The translations under genes were made by a program, and so were the position numbers. DNA of 64,000 nucleotides from a virus: positions 1 to 64,000 of IMG/VR virus record IMGVR_UViG_3300025083_000016, one strand, 5' to 3'. Below the pieces are notes generated by a model. The model was not told the origin of the DNA. It worked only from the letters and a program-made list of their open reading frames with translations, and did not search any database. Below, in pieces: positions 3,275-56,952 of this stretch (positions are counted from its first letter, which is position 1; the number at the start of each line of letters is the position of its first letter).

Positions 3275-4930
3275 ATGACAACTAAAAACATAATACCTAG
3301 AAATAATGATGAGGGACAGATTGGATCTAGCTCTAAAAAATGGGCAAGTGCATTTATATCTGACGGTACTTTTGATACTTTGTCTGTTAATGGTCAAGCT
3401 GTATCTGGCGGAGGTGCTACAGCCTTAACAGGACTTTCAGATGTTACAATAACAAGTGTACAGAACAATCAAGTCTTAAAATATAACGGTTCAAATTGGA
3501 CAAATGCAGCTGCCCCTGCAACACTAAGTAATACAGATGATTTAGTTGAAGGATCTAGTAATCTATACTTTACAAATGAAAGAGTAGATGATAGAGTTAA
3601 TGCATTAACTACAGCAGGTATTGGCATTGCTAAATCTTACAATGATACTGCAAATACACTAACTTTAACGCTAGATCTTGACGAGCTTTCTGCTGCAGCA
3701 GTTGATGTAGCAAGTGATTCTATTGTAATAATCGATGCAAATGATAGTAACGGATCTAAAAAAGAGACAATCTCTGATTTGATAACAGCTGTAGCTGGAA
3801 ATGGACTTTCTGGGTCAAGTGGCGTACTCGATGTAGGTGTAGATGATGTATCTATTGAAATAGATTCTGATGTTTTACGAGTCAAGGCTCTAGGTATTAC
3901 TAACACAATGTTAGCTGGTTCAATTGCAGATACAAAACTTAACACAATTTCAACACCCGGAAAGGTTACACTATCAGCATTAGATATTAATGGGGAAAAT
4001 GATATTGGTGCTGATTTATCAGATACAGATTTACTTATTATTGACGATGGCGCTAACGGAACAAATAGAAAAGCTGCTCTCTCTAGAGTTAAATCTTATA
4101 TTGAAACAAATGCATCAGTTTCAAGTGTAACAGACACAATAACAGTTACAGTTGTTAATAGCGGCGGAAATAAATATGCCCTTGATGGTGTAACTCAAAA
4201 AGTTGGCGTATTATCTAAAGGATTTAAATATAAGTTTGATCAAAGTGATGCAACAAATGGCGGTCACCCGTTAAGATTTAGCACAACTCTAGATGGAACA
4301 CATAATAGTGGCAGTGCTTATTTGACTAATGTTACAGTATCTGGTACACCAGGTAGCTCAGGTGCTTATACTTTAATTGATTTAACTCAAGAAACACCTG
4401 GGACTTTGTATTACTATTGCACAGCACATGCAGGAATGGGCGCTTCAGTTCAGACTGAAGGTATTGTTCCTGGCAATGGTCTAAATAAATCAGGCATGTC
4501 TCTTTCTGTCGACTCAACTATAATAACTGGACAAGTCGCAGAAAGTGCTGCAGATGACAATGATTTAATATTAATTTCAGATACTTCAGATTCTGGTGCT
4601 CTTAAAAAAATGACACGTGCTACTTTTGCAGCTGGGTTAGGAGGAGGCGGGACTAGTACAACTTTACAACCTACAGTAACGACAAGTACTCCATCATTTT
4701 CAGAGGCAACATCAGGTACACATATTTGGCTACTTAATGGATCTACAATAACAGTTGCTTTACCTAACTCTGGTATAACAAATGGAACTATATATCACTT
4801 AAAAAACATAAATAGCACTACAGCAACAGTTTCTGGAACCATTGACAATCTATCTAGCAAATCTTTGAGTCAATATGATAATTTAACTGTAGTTGCAACC
4901 GGCAGTGGCAGTCAATGGTATATTATATAA
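3275..4930 (+). CDS. Modular tail-fibre protein with cupredoxin-like domain
   Basis: A 551-aa fibre-type protein. Residues 1-45 (GQIGSSSKKWASAFISDGTF) are a frequent phage fibre entry motif. Three copies of a D-hydrophobic-I-(I/S)-D...K-(K/R/E) module follow, near residues 144-183, 248-280 and 417-455; the first is nearly identical to one in the gene at the left edge. Residues about 283-397 resemble a blue-copper (cupredoxin) fold: YKFDQSD, GGHPLRFS with H331, and YYYCTAHAGMG with C382, H385 and M388. This His plus Cys-X2-His-X2-Met arrangement matches the ligand spacing of amicyanin. The C-terminal 80 residues resemble the end of the left-edge fibre. The domain assignment rests on motif reading; copper binding is an inference. 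It probably acts in the virion as an adhesin or fibre subunit. Confidence 0.8.
   Translation: MTTKNIIPRNNDEGQIGSSSKKWASAFISDGTFDTLSVNGQAVSGGGATALTGLSDVTITSVQNNQVLKYNGSNWTNAAAPATLSNTDDLVEGSSNLYFTNERVDDRVNALTTAGIGIAKSYNDTANTLTLTLDLDELSAAAVDVASDSIVIIDANDSNGSKKETISDLITAVAGNGLSGSSGVLDVGVDDVSIEIDSDVLRVKALGITNTMLAGSIADTKLNTISTPGKVTLSALDINGENDIGADLSDTDLLIIDDGANGTNRKAALSRVKSYIETNASVSSVTDTITVTVVNSGGNKYALDGVTQKVGVLSKGFKYKFDQSDATNGGHPLRFSTTLDGTHNSGSAYLTNVTVSGTPGSSGAYTLIDLTQETPGTLYYYCTAHAGMGASVQTEGIVPGNGLNKSGMSLSVDSTIITGQVAESAADDNDLILISDTSDSGALKKMTRATFAAGLGGGGTSTTLQPTVTTSTPSFSEATSGTHIWLLNGSTITVALPNSGITNGTIYHLKNINSTTATVSGTIDNLSSKSLSQYDNLTVVATGSGSQWYII
3674..3823 (+). repeat. Fibre module repeat, copy 2
   Basis: The second copy of the module at 17-166, in the same reading frame of a paralogous fibre gene. 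Several synonymous positions are unchanged, including the 30-base perfect match at 3695-3724, so the duplication or gene conversion is probably recent. Confidence 0.85.
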
Positions 4931-8776: not shown

Positions 8777-10306
8777 TCAAAGTTCAGCAATAAATTGAGG
8801 CATCCAAGCAATTTCTACAGTATCATTTGTATCGTTAGAAGCTGCAACTGTATAACCAACTCTATAGATAGTTCCTGAAGTTGGTACAGATGAAGTAGCT
8901 TTCCCTGCTGTGTCTAAATACATTGCTTTTCCTATATTGATAGAGTCATCACCGTCAGGCTTATTAACTGTTACTTTAGTTCCCCATACAGTTGCAATTT
9001 TATAAGTTCCAGCACCATCAATTAATTCAAGTGCTACGCCAAAAACTTCTGAAGTTGATGATCCAGATCTAGAAGCTGGGTCTAAAAGTCTACCTGCAGA
9101 AGCTCCTTGAAAAGACACTATGTCACCAGAACTTAATGAAGCTGTTGAGCCCAAAGGTTCAGTAACTTTTGTACCTACACCTGTTGGAGAATCAATAATT
9201 ATTGCACCAAAAGAAGTAGCAACATTAACTTCAGCATTGCCAGTTGTAATATCATCAGCAGCAACAGAACCTGCTGCAATAGTTCCAACATAAGTTTTAA
9301 CATCAGACATTAAAGCTTTTTTAGTTTGATTACTAGAGCCAGAATCACCAATTATAATAGCGTCGCCATCTGCAAGTGTAACAGAAGAACCTGCACTTGC
9401 ATTTAATAAGTTGATTTCTGCAGCGGTTGCATCTAATGCAGCTAGCTTAGTAAGATCAGCTGCAGTAAGATCGTCATCGTCTAAGTAATTAAGTTCTGCA
9501 GCAGTTGCTGTTACATTTGTTCCACCAATATCAAGTGTAGTCACTGAAATTTCGCCGGCAACTGTAACAAGACCATTTGTAAGTGTTAATAGATCAGTAT
9601 CATTTGTATGACCAATTGTTGTACCATTAATTACAACATCATCTACAGCTAAAGATCCAAATGTACCAAGTCCAGTTGTTGTAATAGCACCTGCTCCTAC
9701 ATCAATAGATGTAAATCCAGAAGTAATAGATCCTGAATCTAACGCACCTACAGAAGTTAAACTAGAGCCAACAACAGAACTTCCTAGAGTAGTCGCACTA
9801 AGTACTGATACATTGTTTATTTTAAATTCTTTTCCAGCAATAGCATTTACATGTTCAGAAAAGTCCCAAGAGTCTGTTGAATTTGTCCAAAGAATCGTAT
9901 GATCAGTCGCACCCTTAAGCGTAATACCACCACCGTCAGCAGTTGTATCTGTTGGTGTATCTACAGTTCCTAATTCTAAATTTTTATCGTCAACTTGTAG
10001 TGTTGTAGAATTAACTGTTGTTGTACTACCATTTACTGTTAAGTTTCCTGTTACAGTAAGATTATCTCCAATAGTAACTTCTGAAGTTGAATGTCCAATA
10101 TTAACTGCAATACCAGATTCCAGAGTTGCAATATTAAGTGCACCTGTTTCGTTTGCTAAAAATGAGTTTGATCCATCATGGTATATTTCTAGATCTTCAC
10201 CAGCACCAATTTTGATTCTTGAAGTATCACCTATTCTAAGATGATCACTAGAACTAGGCTTGTGTATTTTTCCGCTTCCATAACCAATTAAGTCGTAATT
10301 AGCCAT
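8777..10306 (-). CDS. Modular virion/fibre protein, minus strand
   Basis: A 509-aa protein starting MANYDLIGYGSGKIHK after a good ribosome site (AAAGGAAAT on the minus strand). It has low Lys/Arg content and many Gly, Thr, Ser and Ala, in contrast to the Asn/Lys-rich genes around it. Visible modules are a fibre entry segment (IKIGAGEDLEIYHDG), GDNLTVTGNLTVNGSTTTV, and two TAAE(L/I)N-L units (TATAAELNYLDDDDL and DATAAEINLLNASAG). A DAIIIGDSGSSNQTKKALMSD unit is related to the repeat in the plus-strand fibres. A C-terminal part (INIGKAMYLDTAGKATS, then VGYTVAAS) resembles small beta-barrel cement proteins. These modules are typical of marine T4-like phage structural proteins. The exact virion location is unknown. 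Confidence 0.75.
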   Translation of the reverse strand: MANYDLIGYGSGKIHKPSSSDHLRIGDTSRIKIGAGEDLEIYHDGSNSFLANETGALNIATLESGIAVNIGHSTSEVTIGDNLTVTGNLTVNGSTTTVNSTTLQVDDKNLELGTVDTPTDTTADGGGITLKGATDHTILWTNSTDSWDFSEHVNAIAGKEFKINNVSVLSATTLGSSVVGSSLTSVGALDSGSITSGFTSIDVGAGAITTTGLGTFGSLAVDDVVINGTTIGHTNDTDLLTLTNGLVTVAGEISVTTLDIGGTNVTATAAELNYLDDDDLTAADLTKLAALDATAAEINLLNASAGSSVTLADGDAIIIGDSGSSNQTKKALMSDVKTYVGTIAAGSVAADDITTGNAEVNVATSFGAIIIDSPTGVGTKVTEPLGSTASLSSGDIVSFQGASAGRLLDPASRSGSSTSEVFGVALELIDGAGTYKIATVWGTKVTVNKPDGDDSINIGKAMYLDTAGKATSSVPTSGTIYRVGYTVAASNDTNDTVEIAWMPQFIAEL

Positions 10307-11285: not shown

Positions 11286-12527
11286 TTGAGAAAAAAGTTA
11301 TTAATCATTTCAGATCATGCAATGACAACTAGCGGCGTTGCAACACAAAGTCGTCACCTTATTGAAGGCTTATTAGAAACACAAAAATATGACATTGTAC
11401 AGTTAGGTGCAGCAATTCGTCATGAACAATATGCAACACAATCCATTACAGACCATTTTAAAATTATTCCATGTAACGGATTTGGTAACAAAGACATCGT
11501 TAGGTCTCTACTTGTAAAAGAAAAGCCTGATGTAATGATTATCTTTACTGACCCTAGATTTTTTAGTCATATTTTTGAAATGGAAGACGAAATTCATCAA
11601 GTATGTCCAATCATGTATTGGCATGTATGGGATAATCGACCTTCACCTTCATTTAATAAAAAATATTATGATGCAGTTGATAAAGTTGTTGCTATTTCAA
11701 AATTAACTGAGGCAGTTTGTAAAGATATTATACCACAAAAAACAGTATATATACCTCATACATTACCAGAAGACGTTTATTTCCAGATGGAAAATGAAAG
11801 AATTAAGACTTGCAAGTTAAATACCTTAGGTGAAGCAAGAAAAGACAACTTTGTTGCATTGTGGCTTAATAGAAACTCCAGGAGAAAGCGTGCTGCTGAT
11901 GTTTTAAAAGCGTGGCAAATATTTTTGTTTAATCTAGAAGACAAGCATAAAAGAAGTGATGCAACACTTATTATGCATACAAATCCAGAAGATAGTCAAG
12001 GTACAAATTTGCTAGAAATAGCAAAACATTTAGACATCTTAGGAAATGTTTGTTTTTCTGATCAAACTGCATCTTATGAGCAAATTAACGTTCTACACAA
12101 TATTTCAGATGTCTGTGTTAATATTTCGTACGCTGAAGGTTTTGGTTTGACAACTTTAGAGTCTATGAAAGTAGGTAACCCAATAATTGCAACTACAACA
12201 GGTGGATTAACATCTCAGGTAATTGACTATATAGATGGCTCACATAATGGAATACCTTTAACGCCTAAAATAAAAACACTATCTGGGAGTCAAGATGTTC
12301 ATTATATCTATGAAGACTATGCATCAGTTGAAGATACTGCTTGTGCTTTATTAAAAATGTATGAAATGAAAGAAGAAGATCGCAAGAAACTAGGTCAAAA
12401 ATGCAAAAATTATGTTGAAAAAGAGTTTAGTTACAAAAAAATGATTGAGTCTTGGGATAAAGAAATAGAACATACACATACACACTGGAAAGAAAATTAC
12501 AGTAGAGTTACGTTGGAGGAAATTTAA
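11286..12527 (+). CDS. GT-B glycosyltransferase, family 4-like
   Basis: A 413-aa protein with the two-domain GT-B layout. The N-terminal strand LLIISDHAMTTSGVATQSRHL carries the Gly-containing acceptor-side loop typical of family 4 enzymes. The junction has a donor-domain start at VALWLNRNSRRKRAADVLKAW. The E-x7-E motif, E284-GFGLTTL-E292, lies in the nucleotide-sugar site and is followed by a GGL loop. The family transfers a sugar from a nucleotide donor; donor and acceptor cannot be read from the sequence. It begins with TTG and ends overlapping the next glycosyltransferase (TAATG). Possible targets are virion proteins, phage DNA bases or host surface sugars. Confidence 0.85.
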   Translation: MRKKLLIISDHAMTTSGVATQSRHLIEGLLETQKYDIVQLGAAIRHEQYATQSITDHFKIIPCNGFGNKDIVRSLLVKEKPDVMIIFTDPRFFSHIFEMEDEIHQVCPIMYWHVWDNRPSPSFNKKYYDAVDKVVAISKLTEAVCKDIIPQKTVYIPHTLPEDVYFQMENERIKTCKLNTLGEARKDNFVALWLNRNSRRKRAADVLKAWQIFLFNLEDKHKRSDATLIMHTNPEDSQGTNLLEIAKHLDILGNVCFSDQTASYEQINVLHNISDVCVNISYAEGFGLTTLESMKVGNPIIATTTGGLTSQVIDYIDGSHNGIPLTPKIKTLSGSQDVHYIYEDYASVEDTACALLKMYEMKEEDRKKLGQKCKNYVEKEFSYKKMIESWDKEIEHTHTHWKENYSRVTLEEI

Positions 12528-13696
12528 TGAATATTTTAATTAGAGGACCACTTTTAAGCATGTCAGGATACGGAAACCATTCCCGTCAAATTTTTGAACT
12601 AGTTAAGTCAGCAAAACCAAACGCAAAAATACACTGTGATGTATTACCTTGGGGAAGTACATCATGGATTTTGTCACAAGAATTTTGCTCAGACAATAAT
12701 TTTGATGAAATTATTCAGAAAACAATGATTTCTTACAAATTAAAAGAAACACAGTTCGATGAAGTTTATCACATTGGTTTGCCTAATGAATGGAAGCCTT
12801 TTGTCAATTCAAAAAATATTGGAGTTACTGCAGGAATTGAGTCAGATATTTGCAAGGAATCTTGGATAGATGATTTAAATAAAATGGACCTCGTAATTAC
12901 ACCTTCAGAATTTGCAAAAGAATCTTTTATTAAGGCATCAAGTTTTTCTAAAAACAGTCTTCAAACAGATATCTGTGTAATCCCAGAATGGTTCTACGTT
13001 GAGTTTCAAGAATCACATGATAATAAATACGGACTTTTAAATAAAGTCAAAACAGATGAAAACGTGTTGATTATTGGGCAGATTACATCAACAAATTCAG
13101 AAAGTGATAGAAAAAATATTGCAAGATCTTTAAGAGAAACTGCATCATATCTTTCAGGTGTAGATAAAGAAACAGGCATTATCTTAAAAATCTTAACATC
13201 TGGTTCTAACGAATTAGCAAAAAAAATAGCAAAAGATATTATAAGAAACGAAGTAGAAGGTTTAAGCGTGCCTGTTTATCTTTTGTTTGGTAATATGACA
13301 CCATATGAACTGAAAAGTTTATATTCTGATCCTAAAGTTACTTGTTTACTTACAGGTACTAGAGGTGAATGCTTTGGATTAACAATTTTAGAAGCTGCTG
13401 TAAATAAACTTCCGATCATAGCAACAGGTTGGTCTGCACATACTGAATTCATAAATTATATGTTTCAGTTAGAGTATGATTTAAAACAAGTACCACCTAG
13501 TAACAATACAGTATTTTTTAACAAATGTTCTAGATGGGCTGAGTATAAAACATCTTCTTTAGAGGAAAATCTTAAAAAAGTGTTTATTGAAAAAGCAGTA
13601 GACTGCGAAGAATTAGAAGCTCAATCATCATTTTTAATAAACAATTACTCTAAGAATGCAATAATATCAAAATATAGTAGCATTTTGATCGGATAA
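12527..13696 (+). CDS. Second GT-B glycosyltransferase
   Basis: A 389-aa protein, translationally coupled to the preceding glycosyltransferase. The start ILIRGPLLSMSGYGNHSRQI is the family N-terminal strand and loop. VITPSEFAKESF and VIPEWF lie at the domain junction, and the E-x7-E motif is E281-CFGLTIL-E289, followed by PIIATGWSAHTEF. It is related in architecture but clearly diverged from its neighbour, so the two may act in sequence on the same acceptor. The substrate is unknown. The next gene, four bases downstream, encodes a membrane-anchored protein that might tether the pathway, though this is speculation. Confidence 0.83.
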   Translation: MNILIRGPLLSMSGYGNHSRQIFELVKSAKPNAKIHCDVLPWGSTSWILSQEFCSDNNFDEIIQKTMISYKLKETQFDEVYHIGLPNEWKPFVNSKNIGVTAGIESDICKESWIDDLNKMDLVITPSEFAKESFIKASSFSKNSLQTDICVIPEWFYVEFQESHDNKYGLLNKVKTDENVLIIGQITSTNSESDRKNIARSLRETASYLSGVDKETGIILKILTSGSNELAKKIAKDIIRNEVEGLSVPVYLLFGNMTPYELKSLYSDPKVTCLLTGTRGECFGLTILEAAVNKLPIIATGWSAHTEFINYMFQLEYDLKQVPPSNNTVFFNKCSRWAEYKTSSLEENLKKVFIEKAVDCEELEAQSSFLINNYSKNAIISKYSSILIG

Positions 13697-55326: not shown

Positions 55327-56952
55327 ATGGCACAAAGATTATCTAGAAATGGACAAATAAACGAAATTATAAAATGTGGTAAAGACCCAGTTTATTTTAT
55401 GAACAGGTATCTAAAGATTCAACATCCTGTGAAAGGCTTGATACCTTTTAAAACGTTTCCTTTTCAAGATGATTGTGTTAAAGAATTTAATGATCATAGA
55501 TTTAATATAATTCTAAAGTCTAGACAGCTAGGTTTATCAACGTTAGCTGCTGCTTATGCAGTTTGGCAAGCAATATTCTATAAAGAAAAAAATATTCTTA
55601 TTATTGCTACAAAACTTGCAGTTGCACAAAACTTTATAAGAAAAGTAAAGACTTATATGAAGTCTATGCCTAAGTGGCTATTAGTTCCAACAGTTACAGC
55701 AAACAATAAGCAGCAAGTTGAATTTTCAAACGGTTCACAAATAAAAGCAGTACCGACATCAGAAGATGCAGGTCGTTCTGAAGCATTATCATTATTAATT
55801 GTTGATGAAGCTGCTTTTGTTAGAAACTTTGACGAATTATGGATGGGTTTATATCCTACTCTGTCTACTGGTGGGCGTGCTATTCTATTATCTACTCCAA
55901 ATGGTGTAGGTGGTCAATATCATGAAATATACACTAAAGCAGAACGCAAAGAAAACAAGTTTAACAATATAAAGCTAATGTGGGATGTTCACCCTGAAAG
56001 AGGCGATGAGTGGTTCAATAGAGAAACTAAGAATATGTCGCAAAAACAAGTTGCACAAGAGCTTCTTTGTGACTTTGCATCTTCAGGAGATACATTTTTA
56101 ACAGCTGAAGTATTAGAAAAAATAAGACTAACAACTAAGTCGCCTATTGAAAAAAGTGGTCCTGAATATAATGTTTGGTATTGGGAATATCCAATTGAAG
56201 GTGTTAATTATATTTGTTCTGCAGATATTGCAAGAGGTGACAGCGGTGATTATTCTGCTTTCCATATTATAAACACTAAAGATAATTCTATAGCAGTAGA
56301 ATATAAAGGTAAAATACCGCCAGATCATTTTGCTTCATTAATATATGATGTATCTAGAAGATTTAATTCTGCAGTTATTTGTCCAGAGAATAATGCATAT
56401 GGGTACTCTGTTTTAACAAAACTTCAAGACTTATCATATAAAAATATTTATTTCTCTTCTGAAAAAGAAAAATACAAGTTTTTATATGGAGATGGCTCAA
56501 ATATAGGAAAAGCTGGATTTAATACAAACAAAGACAGTAAAGAGAAAATTCTTGCAAATTTTGAAGAATCTTTAAGGAATAATAGACTTAAAACTTATTC
56601 TCAAAGGCTTTTCGAAGAGTTAAAAACATTTGTCTGGAACGGCAAAAAAGTTGGTGCAATGAAAGGATATAATGATGACCTTATTATGTCACTTGCAATA
56701 GGCTGTTGGCTTACAGATAGCAATTCAAATACTTATAATGTTGAGCAAATTAAGCAAGCAGATTCTTTATTAAAAGGAATGGAAGTTAACAATACACAAG
56801 CAAAAGATACAATAATATCACCTTTTTATACAAACAAACATAACGTAGTAAATCCTTTTGTACCTGTTTTTATGTCTAACAACAAATTTTCAGGAAAAGA
56901 AATTACAAAATCAAATCCTCTAGGTGACTTATCCTGGCTAATAGGGAAATAA
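55327..56952 (+). CDS. 17: Terminase large subunit, gp17-like
   Basis: A 541-aa DNA-packaging motor. The ATPase has Walker A K64-SRQLGLST (residues 64-72), Walker B LLIVDEAAF with D160 and E161, and the coupling motif STPNG at 189-193. The RNase H-like nuclease domain has D300 in CSADIARGD, E354 in CPENNAYGY, and D450-D451 in YNDDLIMSLAIG. T4 gp17 is 610 aa, so this is slightly shorter. It cuts the concatemeric phage DNA and pumps it into the prohead through the portal encoded three bases downstream. The family is certain. Confidence 0.95.
   Translation: MAQRLSRNGQINEIIKCGKDPVYFMNRYLKIQHPVKGLIPFKTFPFQDDCVKEFNDHRFNIILKSRQLGLSTLAAAYAVWQAIFYKEKNILIIATKLAVAQNFIRKVKTYMKSMPKWLLVPTVTANNKQQVEFSNGSQIKAVPTSEDAGRSEALSLLIVDEAAFVRNFDELWMGLYPTLSTGGRAILLSTPNGVGGQYHEIYTKAERKENKFNNIKLMWDVHPERGDEWFNRETKNMSQKQVAQELLCDFASSGDTFLTAEVLEKIRLTTKSPIEKSGPEYNVWYWEYPIEGVNYICSADIARGDSGDYSAFHIINTKDNSIAVEYKGKIPPDHFASLIYDVSRRFNSAVICPENNAYGYSVLTKLQDLSYKNIYFSSEKEKYKFLYGDGSNIGKAGFNTNKDSKEKILANFEESLRNNRLKTYSQRLFEELKTFVWNGKKVGAMKGYNDDLIMSLAIGCWLTDSNSNTYNVEQIKQADSLLKGMEVNNTQAKDTIISPFYTNKHNVVNPFVPVFMSNNKFSGKEITKSNPLGDLSWLIGK

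Follow-up and report, generated by a model that had tools for sequence, protein, structure and literature searches.

The question that this locus raises is whether a fiber-like protein of a virus particle carries a type 1 copper site and, if so, what such a site would do there. The stretch analyzed (hereafter the window, 64 kb) comes from a virus record of 73,847 bases with T4-type genes. Its terminase (55327-56952) matches phrog_2 with an E value of 2.4e-52 and has its closest phage relatives in a Microcystis phage and Flavobacterium phages. A preliminary description had located a cupredoxin-like segment in a long open reading frame near the start of the window, with a His, a Cys, a second His, and a Met as ligands. 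Translation of 3275-4930 on the plus strand places H331 in GGHPLRFS and C382, H385, and M388 in YYYCTAHAGMG, exactly where they had been reported, and the Cys-X2-His-X2-Met spacing agrees in loop length with that of amicyanin, as had also been claimed (table 1). C382 is the sole cysteine of the protein. Furthermore, within the open frames of at least about 100 codons in the window, the domain holds the only motif of the form C-x2-H-x2-M or C-x2-H-x4-M. Chance can be ruled out as the origin of the motif, which arises in just 0.017% of shuffles of the domain and whose ligands are invariant in an alignment of 60 sequences.

Table 1. Positions in the window of the predicted cupredoxin domain, its candidate copper ligands, and the open reading frame that carries them.
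Feature	Position	Strand	Evidence
Putative fiber-like virion protein carrying the cupredoxin domain	3275..4930	+	Uninterrupted frame, 551 aa; PHROG tail-fiber and structural matches
Repeat module, residues 135-187	3677..3835	+	BLASTP against fiber-like ORF 20-1591
Predicted cupredoxin domain, residues 283-397	4121..4465	+	AlphaFold2, Foldseek, hhalign
His331, first predicted copper ligand; precedes a beta strand, Pro332 next	4265..4267	+	Invariant in 60-row alignment; aligned with amicyanin ligand His
Cys382, predicted copper thiolate ligand, end of a beta strand	4418..4420	+	Alignment, model, amicyanin comparison
His385, predicted second His ligand, C-terminal loop	4427..4429	+	Alignment and amicyanin comparison
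Met388, predicted axial ligand, directly before last beta strand	4436..4438	+	Alignment, model, amicyanin comparison

Several lines of evidence suggest that this segment adopts a cupredoxin fold, known from the blue copper proteins that serve photosynthesis and respiration. An AlphaFold2 model of residues 283-397, for which an alignment of 60 sequences of viral relatives served as input, has a pLDDT of 94.1 and a pTM of 0.87 and contains nine predicted strands, in keeping with the beta-rich character first ascribed to the segment. In this model His331 lies before one strand, Cys382 ends the penultimate strand, and Met388 stands before the last, which is the arrangement of cupredoxins. A Foldseek search of the PDB gave 11 matches at E ≤ 0.001, all of them rusticyanins or copper nitrite reductases at a probability of 1.00, the three-domain nitrite reductase of Hyphomicrobium among them; next in the ranking come a pseudoazurin with an amicyanin loop, plastocyanin, and amicyanin. 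The TM-scores against known cupredoxins are moderate (0.5-0.6), as would be expected of a related but not a close structure. In a profile comparison with hhalign, all four ligands aligned with those of a manually entered amicyanin sequence (E = 8.5e-5); the predicted fold and this alignment imply that the four residues should lie close together. The same method gave a probability of 94.8 and an E value of 5.3e-8 against eight plastocyanin- or pseudoazurin-like sequences taken from genomes.

Searches with individual profiles or sequences gave weaker matches. The window domain scores 13.2 bits (E = 0.12) against the Pfam family PF00127 (Copper-bind), below the cut-off of 21.2 bits, which is the detection threshold of one profile and not a structural property, and a PF00127 profile search of the window's own record found nothing. 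A phmmer search of the PDB with the single domain found plastocyanin at an E value of 0.038, and a profile of 13 rows found pseudoazurin at 0.23; both are weak, and neither was accepted alone. Beyond the pseudoazurin, the 13-row profile matched no PDB chains other than weak antibody and chitinase hits. There are, however, relatives of the domain that exceed the Pfam cut-off, namely both domains of phage contig L178 (22.4 and 23.8 bits), a Woeseiaceae lipoprotein (25.3 bits), and a secreted Prochlorococcus protein (34.4 bits). Because these proteins match the profiles of both families, the domain family can be joined by sequence to the plastocyanin/azurin family.

A match to cupredoxins might be expected of phage beta-sandwiches in general. 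This is ruled out by a ligand-free paralog of the PSS2 type (L177), whose model is as confident as that of the window domain; in its case Foldseek ranks titin and antibody Ig domains highest in the PDB, and no match reaches E ≤ 0.001. Resemblance to cupredoxins and presence of the site thus go together. Small proteins of the cyanophage PSS2 type (about 110 aa; L176-L179, L281) consist of the domain alone, without the ligands, and bear the label baseplate wedge subunit in PSS2.

The pattern of conservation points in the same direction. In the 60-row alignment, where mean identity is 39%, the columns of the four ligands are invariant and no others are. All four are kept in 206 of 216 unique domains (~95%), a count that is partly biased in that several of the scan patterns contained the Cys; 16 whole phage records, surveyed with a profile and so independently of those patterns, showed both intact and ligand-less domains, at one to five copies per genome. 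When the domains are clustered at 70% identity, 118 clusters have the first His together with the Cys-His-Met loop, 11 have neither, four have the His only, and one has the loop only. This joint loss of the two halves of the site is significant over the clusters with no correction for descent (Fisher p = 4e-12), and an independent-pairs test on the tree, with two supported pairs only and without significance, runs in the same direction and never in the opposite one. Since some phage copies are without the site, virions can evidently do without it. In a variant from P-RSM6 (L095, L284) a Gln replaces the axial Met, and the corresponding loops, CHHHTGQG and CHFHTGQG, also include that of L427. 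Gln is an axial ligand in natural cupredoxins as well, for example in stellacyanin. Based on the model, the fold search, the profile-profile comparison, the Pfam membership of relatives, the invariance of the ligands, and their joint loss, the proposal of a cupredoxin-like segment with a type 1 ligand set holds up, and we are highly confident in predicting a cupredoxin fold with a complete type 1 site in residues 283-397.

The domain nevertheless differs from each of its closest known counterparts. The best fold match is rusticyanin 1gy1 (E = 1.4e-4, TM-score 0.55), at an identity of 14%; rusticyanin is a free periplasmic protein of acidophiles that is longer and has a ligand loop of another length. 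With the plastocyanin/azurin family (PF00127, including amicyanin and pseudoazurin) the domain shares its predicted fold, the ligand order His...Cys-X2-His-X2-Met, and the positions of the ligands relative to the strands, but members of that family are free secreted carriers, whereas here the module lies inside a large virion protein and has a longer middle region. Plastocyanin and amicyanin have His-Asn at the first His and Cys-X-Pro-His at the second. The window domain has the Cys-X2-His-X2-Met loop of the amicyanin subfamily but neither the Asn after the first His nor the Pro before the second, reading H-P and C-T-A-H instead. Relative to plastocyanin and amicyanin, the placement of Pro around the two His residues is reversed throughout the domain family: a Pro directly follows the first His in 437 of 454 aligned intact copies and directly precedes the second in 2 of the 454. 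In classic cupredoxin sites the Cys sulfur accepts backbone hydrogen bonds; one of these should be lost here because of Pro332, and the non-Pro residue before His385 could supply the other. Given this expected effect of Pro332, the site may differ in color and potential from textbook blue sites and is perhaps not normally blue.

Within the carrier protein, the cupredoxin domain sits between repeat modules. One module of 53 residues is common to this protein and to the fiber-like ORF at 20-1591 (38/53 identical, 72%; BLASTP), and a domain search of the whole record found one copy of the cupredoxin domain and no match to it in ORF 20-1591. The sharing of the repeat module and the single copy of the domain together suggest that the latter behaves as an inserted module. 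The carrier is best regarded as a putative tail fiber. Its PHROG tail-fiber matches pass largely through the cupredoxin domain itself, and related copies also occur in structural proteins that are not fibers, so that we retain the label used in the preliminary description in this qualified form; a Pfam search found no fiber domain above cut-off in the ORF. A second fiber-like or structural ORF (8777-10306) lies on the minus strand, opposite to the main structural genes, and has a PHROG structural match at an E value of 2.7e-26. Near the fiber genes there is also an adjacent pair of plus-strand ORFs (11286-13696) that look glycosyltransferase-like by eye.

The domain was detected in 168 of 50,697 phage records, nearly all from marine hosts (Synechococcus, Prochlorococcus, Pelagibacter, and Methylophilales), and in 579 stretches of viral contigs, which bears out the earlier remark that other proteins of marine phages contain such segments. 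The phage carriers are fibers, baseplate proteins, and other structural proteins. In P-SSM7, a gp9-type fiber connector and the next baseplate wedge protein both have intact sites, and in S-TIM5 the domain is part of a structural protein whose gene is near that of the portal. The PHROG families of the cyanophage baseplate wedge tail fiber connector, baseplate wedge, and tail fiber (phrog_677, 708, 693, 30742) contain the domain at E values from 1e-9 to 1e-22 and are annotated as structural proteins only; further cyanophage proteins match by predicted structure (BFVD). In contigs filed under several bacteria (L303, L307, L309, L363), proteins of 270-370 aa have a Cys-rich N-terminal stretch (RCGF...C..C) and, after it, the domain; they are probably phage structural proteins.

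A scan of cellular genomes with a profile of five alignment rows found the domain at the C-terminus of putative lipoproteins, with the lipobox recognized by eye, in the bacteria SAR86, SAR92, Woeseiaceae, and Actinomarina and in MGII Euryarchaeota among the archaea. These proteins have both the domain family and the ligand set in common with the phage proteins and differ in being cell-anchored. The suggestion that the module is widespread is thus borne out by many marine phage records and by surface lipoproteins of marine microbes alike. Examples of the lipoprotein N-termini are ...LSACGGGGGG and ...LSGCLGSDD (L319, L320, L321, L322, L323, L340, L346, L347, L354, L361). In Bacteroidetes, open frames of 5,494 and 9,219 aa carry the domain (L399 and L400; genomes G016 and G003). 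Some of the records filed as bacterial are phage sequence, such as the T7-like fibers in Pelagibacteraceae (L351, L369). Reconstruction of transfer between viruses and cells gave 30 changes, only 4 of them forced, on a poorly resolved tree. Given this tree and the phage sequence among the "cell" records, we claim no direction of transfer.

Taking these observations together, we propose, with an overall confidence of roughly 65%, that the locus encodes a cupredoxin domain with an intact type 1 site, and that this domain may act as a metal-stiffened surface contact module on the virion. It is likely that a metal is bound in the virion, because the ligands are strictly conserved on a variable scaffold, and the ligand set and fold argue that this metal is copper. 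A single copper ion would enter the site, probably once assembly is complete and either in seawater or in the periplasm. The metal would then hold together the loop of the first His and the Cys-His-Met loop, stiffening one end of the exposed beta-sandwich, and this rigid end could, by conjecture, serve as a general contact module that meets a marine cell surface, be it the host or its matrix. Because of the many virion locations and the cell-surface lipoproteins, we favor such a generic surface role over a function tied to one receptor or electron transfer within the phage. A metal-stabilized contact module is a tentative choice, with somewhat less than even odds. A more specific possibility, to which we give a small chance, is that marine phage virions carry working type 1 copper sites, in a domain shared with surface lipoproteins of abundant plankton microbes, and that copper or its redox state is used in copper-dependent adsorption or in triggering at host contact. 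Since baseplate proteins, other structural proteins, and cellular lipoproteins account for many of the relatives, dedicated metal-based adsorption is only one of several readings.

The persistence in phage proteins of ligand-free, degenerate copies that fold well, and the spread of copies over many different virion proteins, would also suit a metal-free, Ig-like decoration module, in which the beta-sandwich itself is the active part, as a spacer or by binding weakly to a surface, and a cellular cupredoxin has left the His-Cys-His-Met set behind as a structural relic. A relic would erode, yet here the four ligands, and no other columns, are invariant, the site is intact in about 95% of the unique domains, and loss strikes both halves of the site, and for these reasons we consider a relic unlikely. 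If the ligands do bind metal, this could be another metal such as Zn, or Cu(I) only, in a purely structural site with no blue band. The expected change in hydrogen bonding at the Cys sulfur caused by Pro332 and the axial Gln of P-RSM6 would be compatible with this, but His-Cys-His-Met in a cupredoxin fold is, to our knowledge, the signature of type 1 copper in all characterized homologs, which leaves another metal a slim prospect. The complete type 1 ligand set with its amicyanin-length loop, and best fold matches that are electron-transfer proteins, would fit a working blue copper domain able to dock, at the host surface or in the periplasm, to a redox partner, for electron transfer or for redox sensing or triggering. 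This seems rather improbable, given that no redox partner or second cofactor was recognized within the 64-kb window, that proteins of the baseplate and other structural proteins carry copies, and that the Pro after the first His is absent from the classic cupredoxins compared. Finally, virions might pick up copper from seawater and exploit, or deliver to, host copper uptake, as a counterpart of the Trojan-horse idea for iron. The domain is nearly exclusive to marine phages, and there is a precedent in the fiber of the marine Alteromonas phage R22Y, for which iron binding through HxH motifs has been proposed (PMC11705849); both would be metal-binding marine phage fibers, but with iron and HxH motifs there and a cupredoxin Cys-His-Met loop here. 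Baseplate and other structural proteins and cellular lipoproteins carry the domain too, however, and no host copper receptor is implicated, so that copper capture appears very unlikely.

If the site of the proposed contact module does hold copper, viruses that are very common in the ocean (cyanophages, pelagiphages, and methylophilales phages) would have virions that are metalloproteins with several type 1 copper sites each, of which we found no earlier report in the literature searched. Virus entry or stability would then be linked to copper, a metal both scarce and toxic in seawater, virions would form part of the organic copper-ligand pool, and phage fibers would be connected to a surface lipoprotein family of SAR86, Actinomarina, and MGII archaea. 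These proposals can be tested directly, since several of the carriers are cultured phages, including P-SSM2, P-SSM7, S-TIM5, Mosig, HTVC028P, and Melnitz. Full-text literature searches found no description of a cupredoxin domain in a phage fiber or virion and no paper that joins cupredoxin, phage, and tail fiber. Two candidate precedents were set aside: a paper on cyanophage and cupredoxin concerns Borgs, and one on marine NirK has a metabolic gene rather than any protein of the virion as its subject. Neither a copper site nor a cupredoxin is mentioned in the PHROG and BFVD names examined, although some of these proteins may already be labeled cupredoxin-like by automatic annotation in databases. 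Among the BFVD entries that match the predicted structure of the domain are also "beta-sandwich" proteins of Pithovirus and Marseillevirus (A0A481Z7Q7, A0A481YVH3, A0A481Z6J5).
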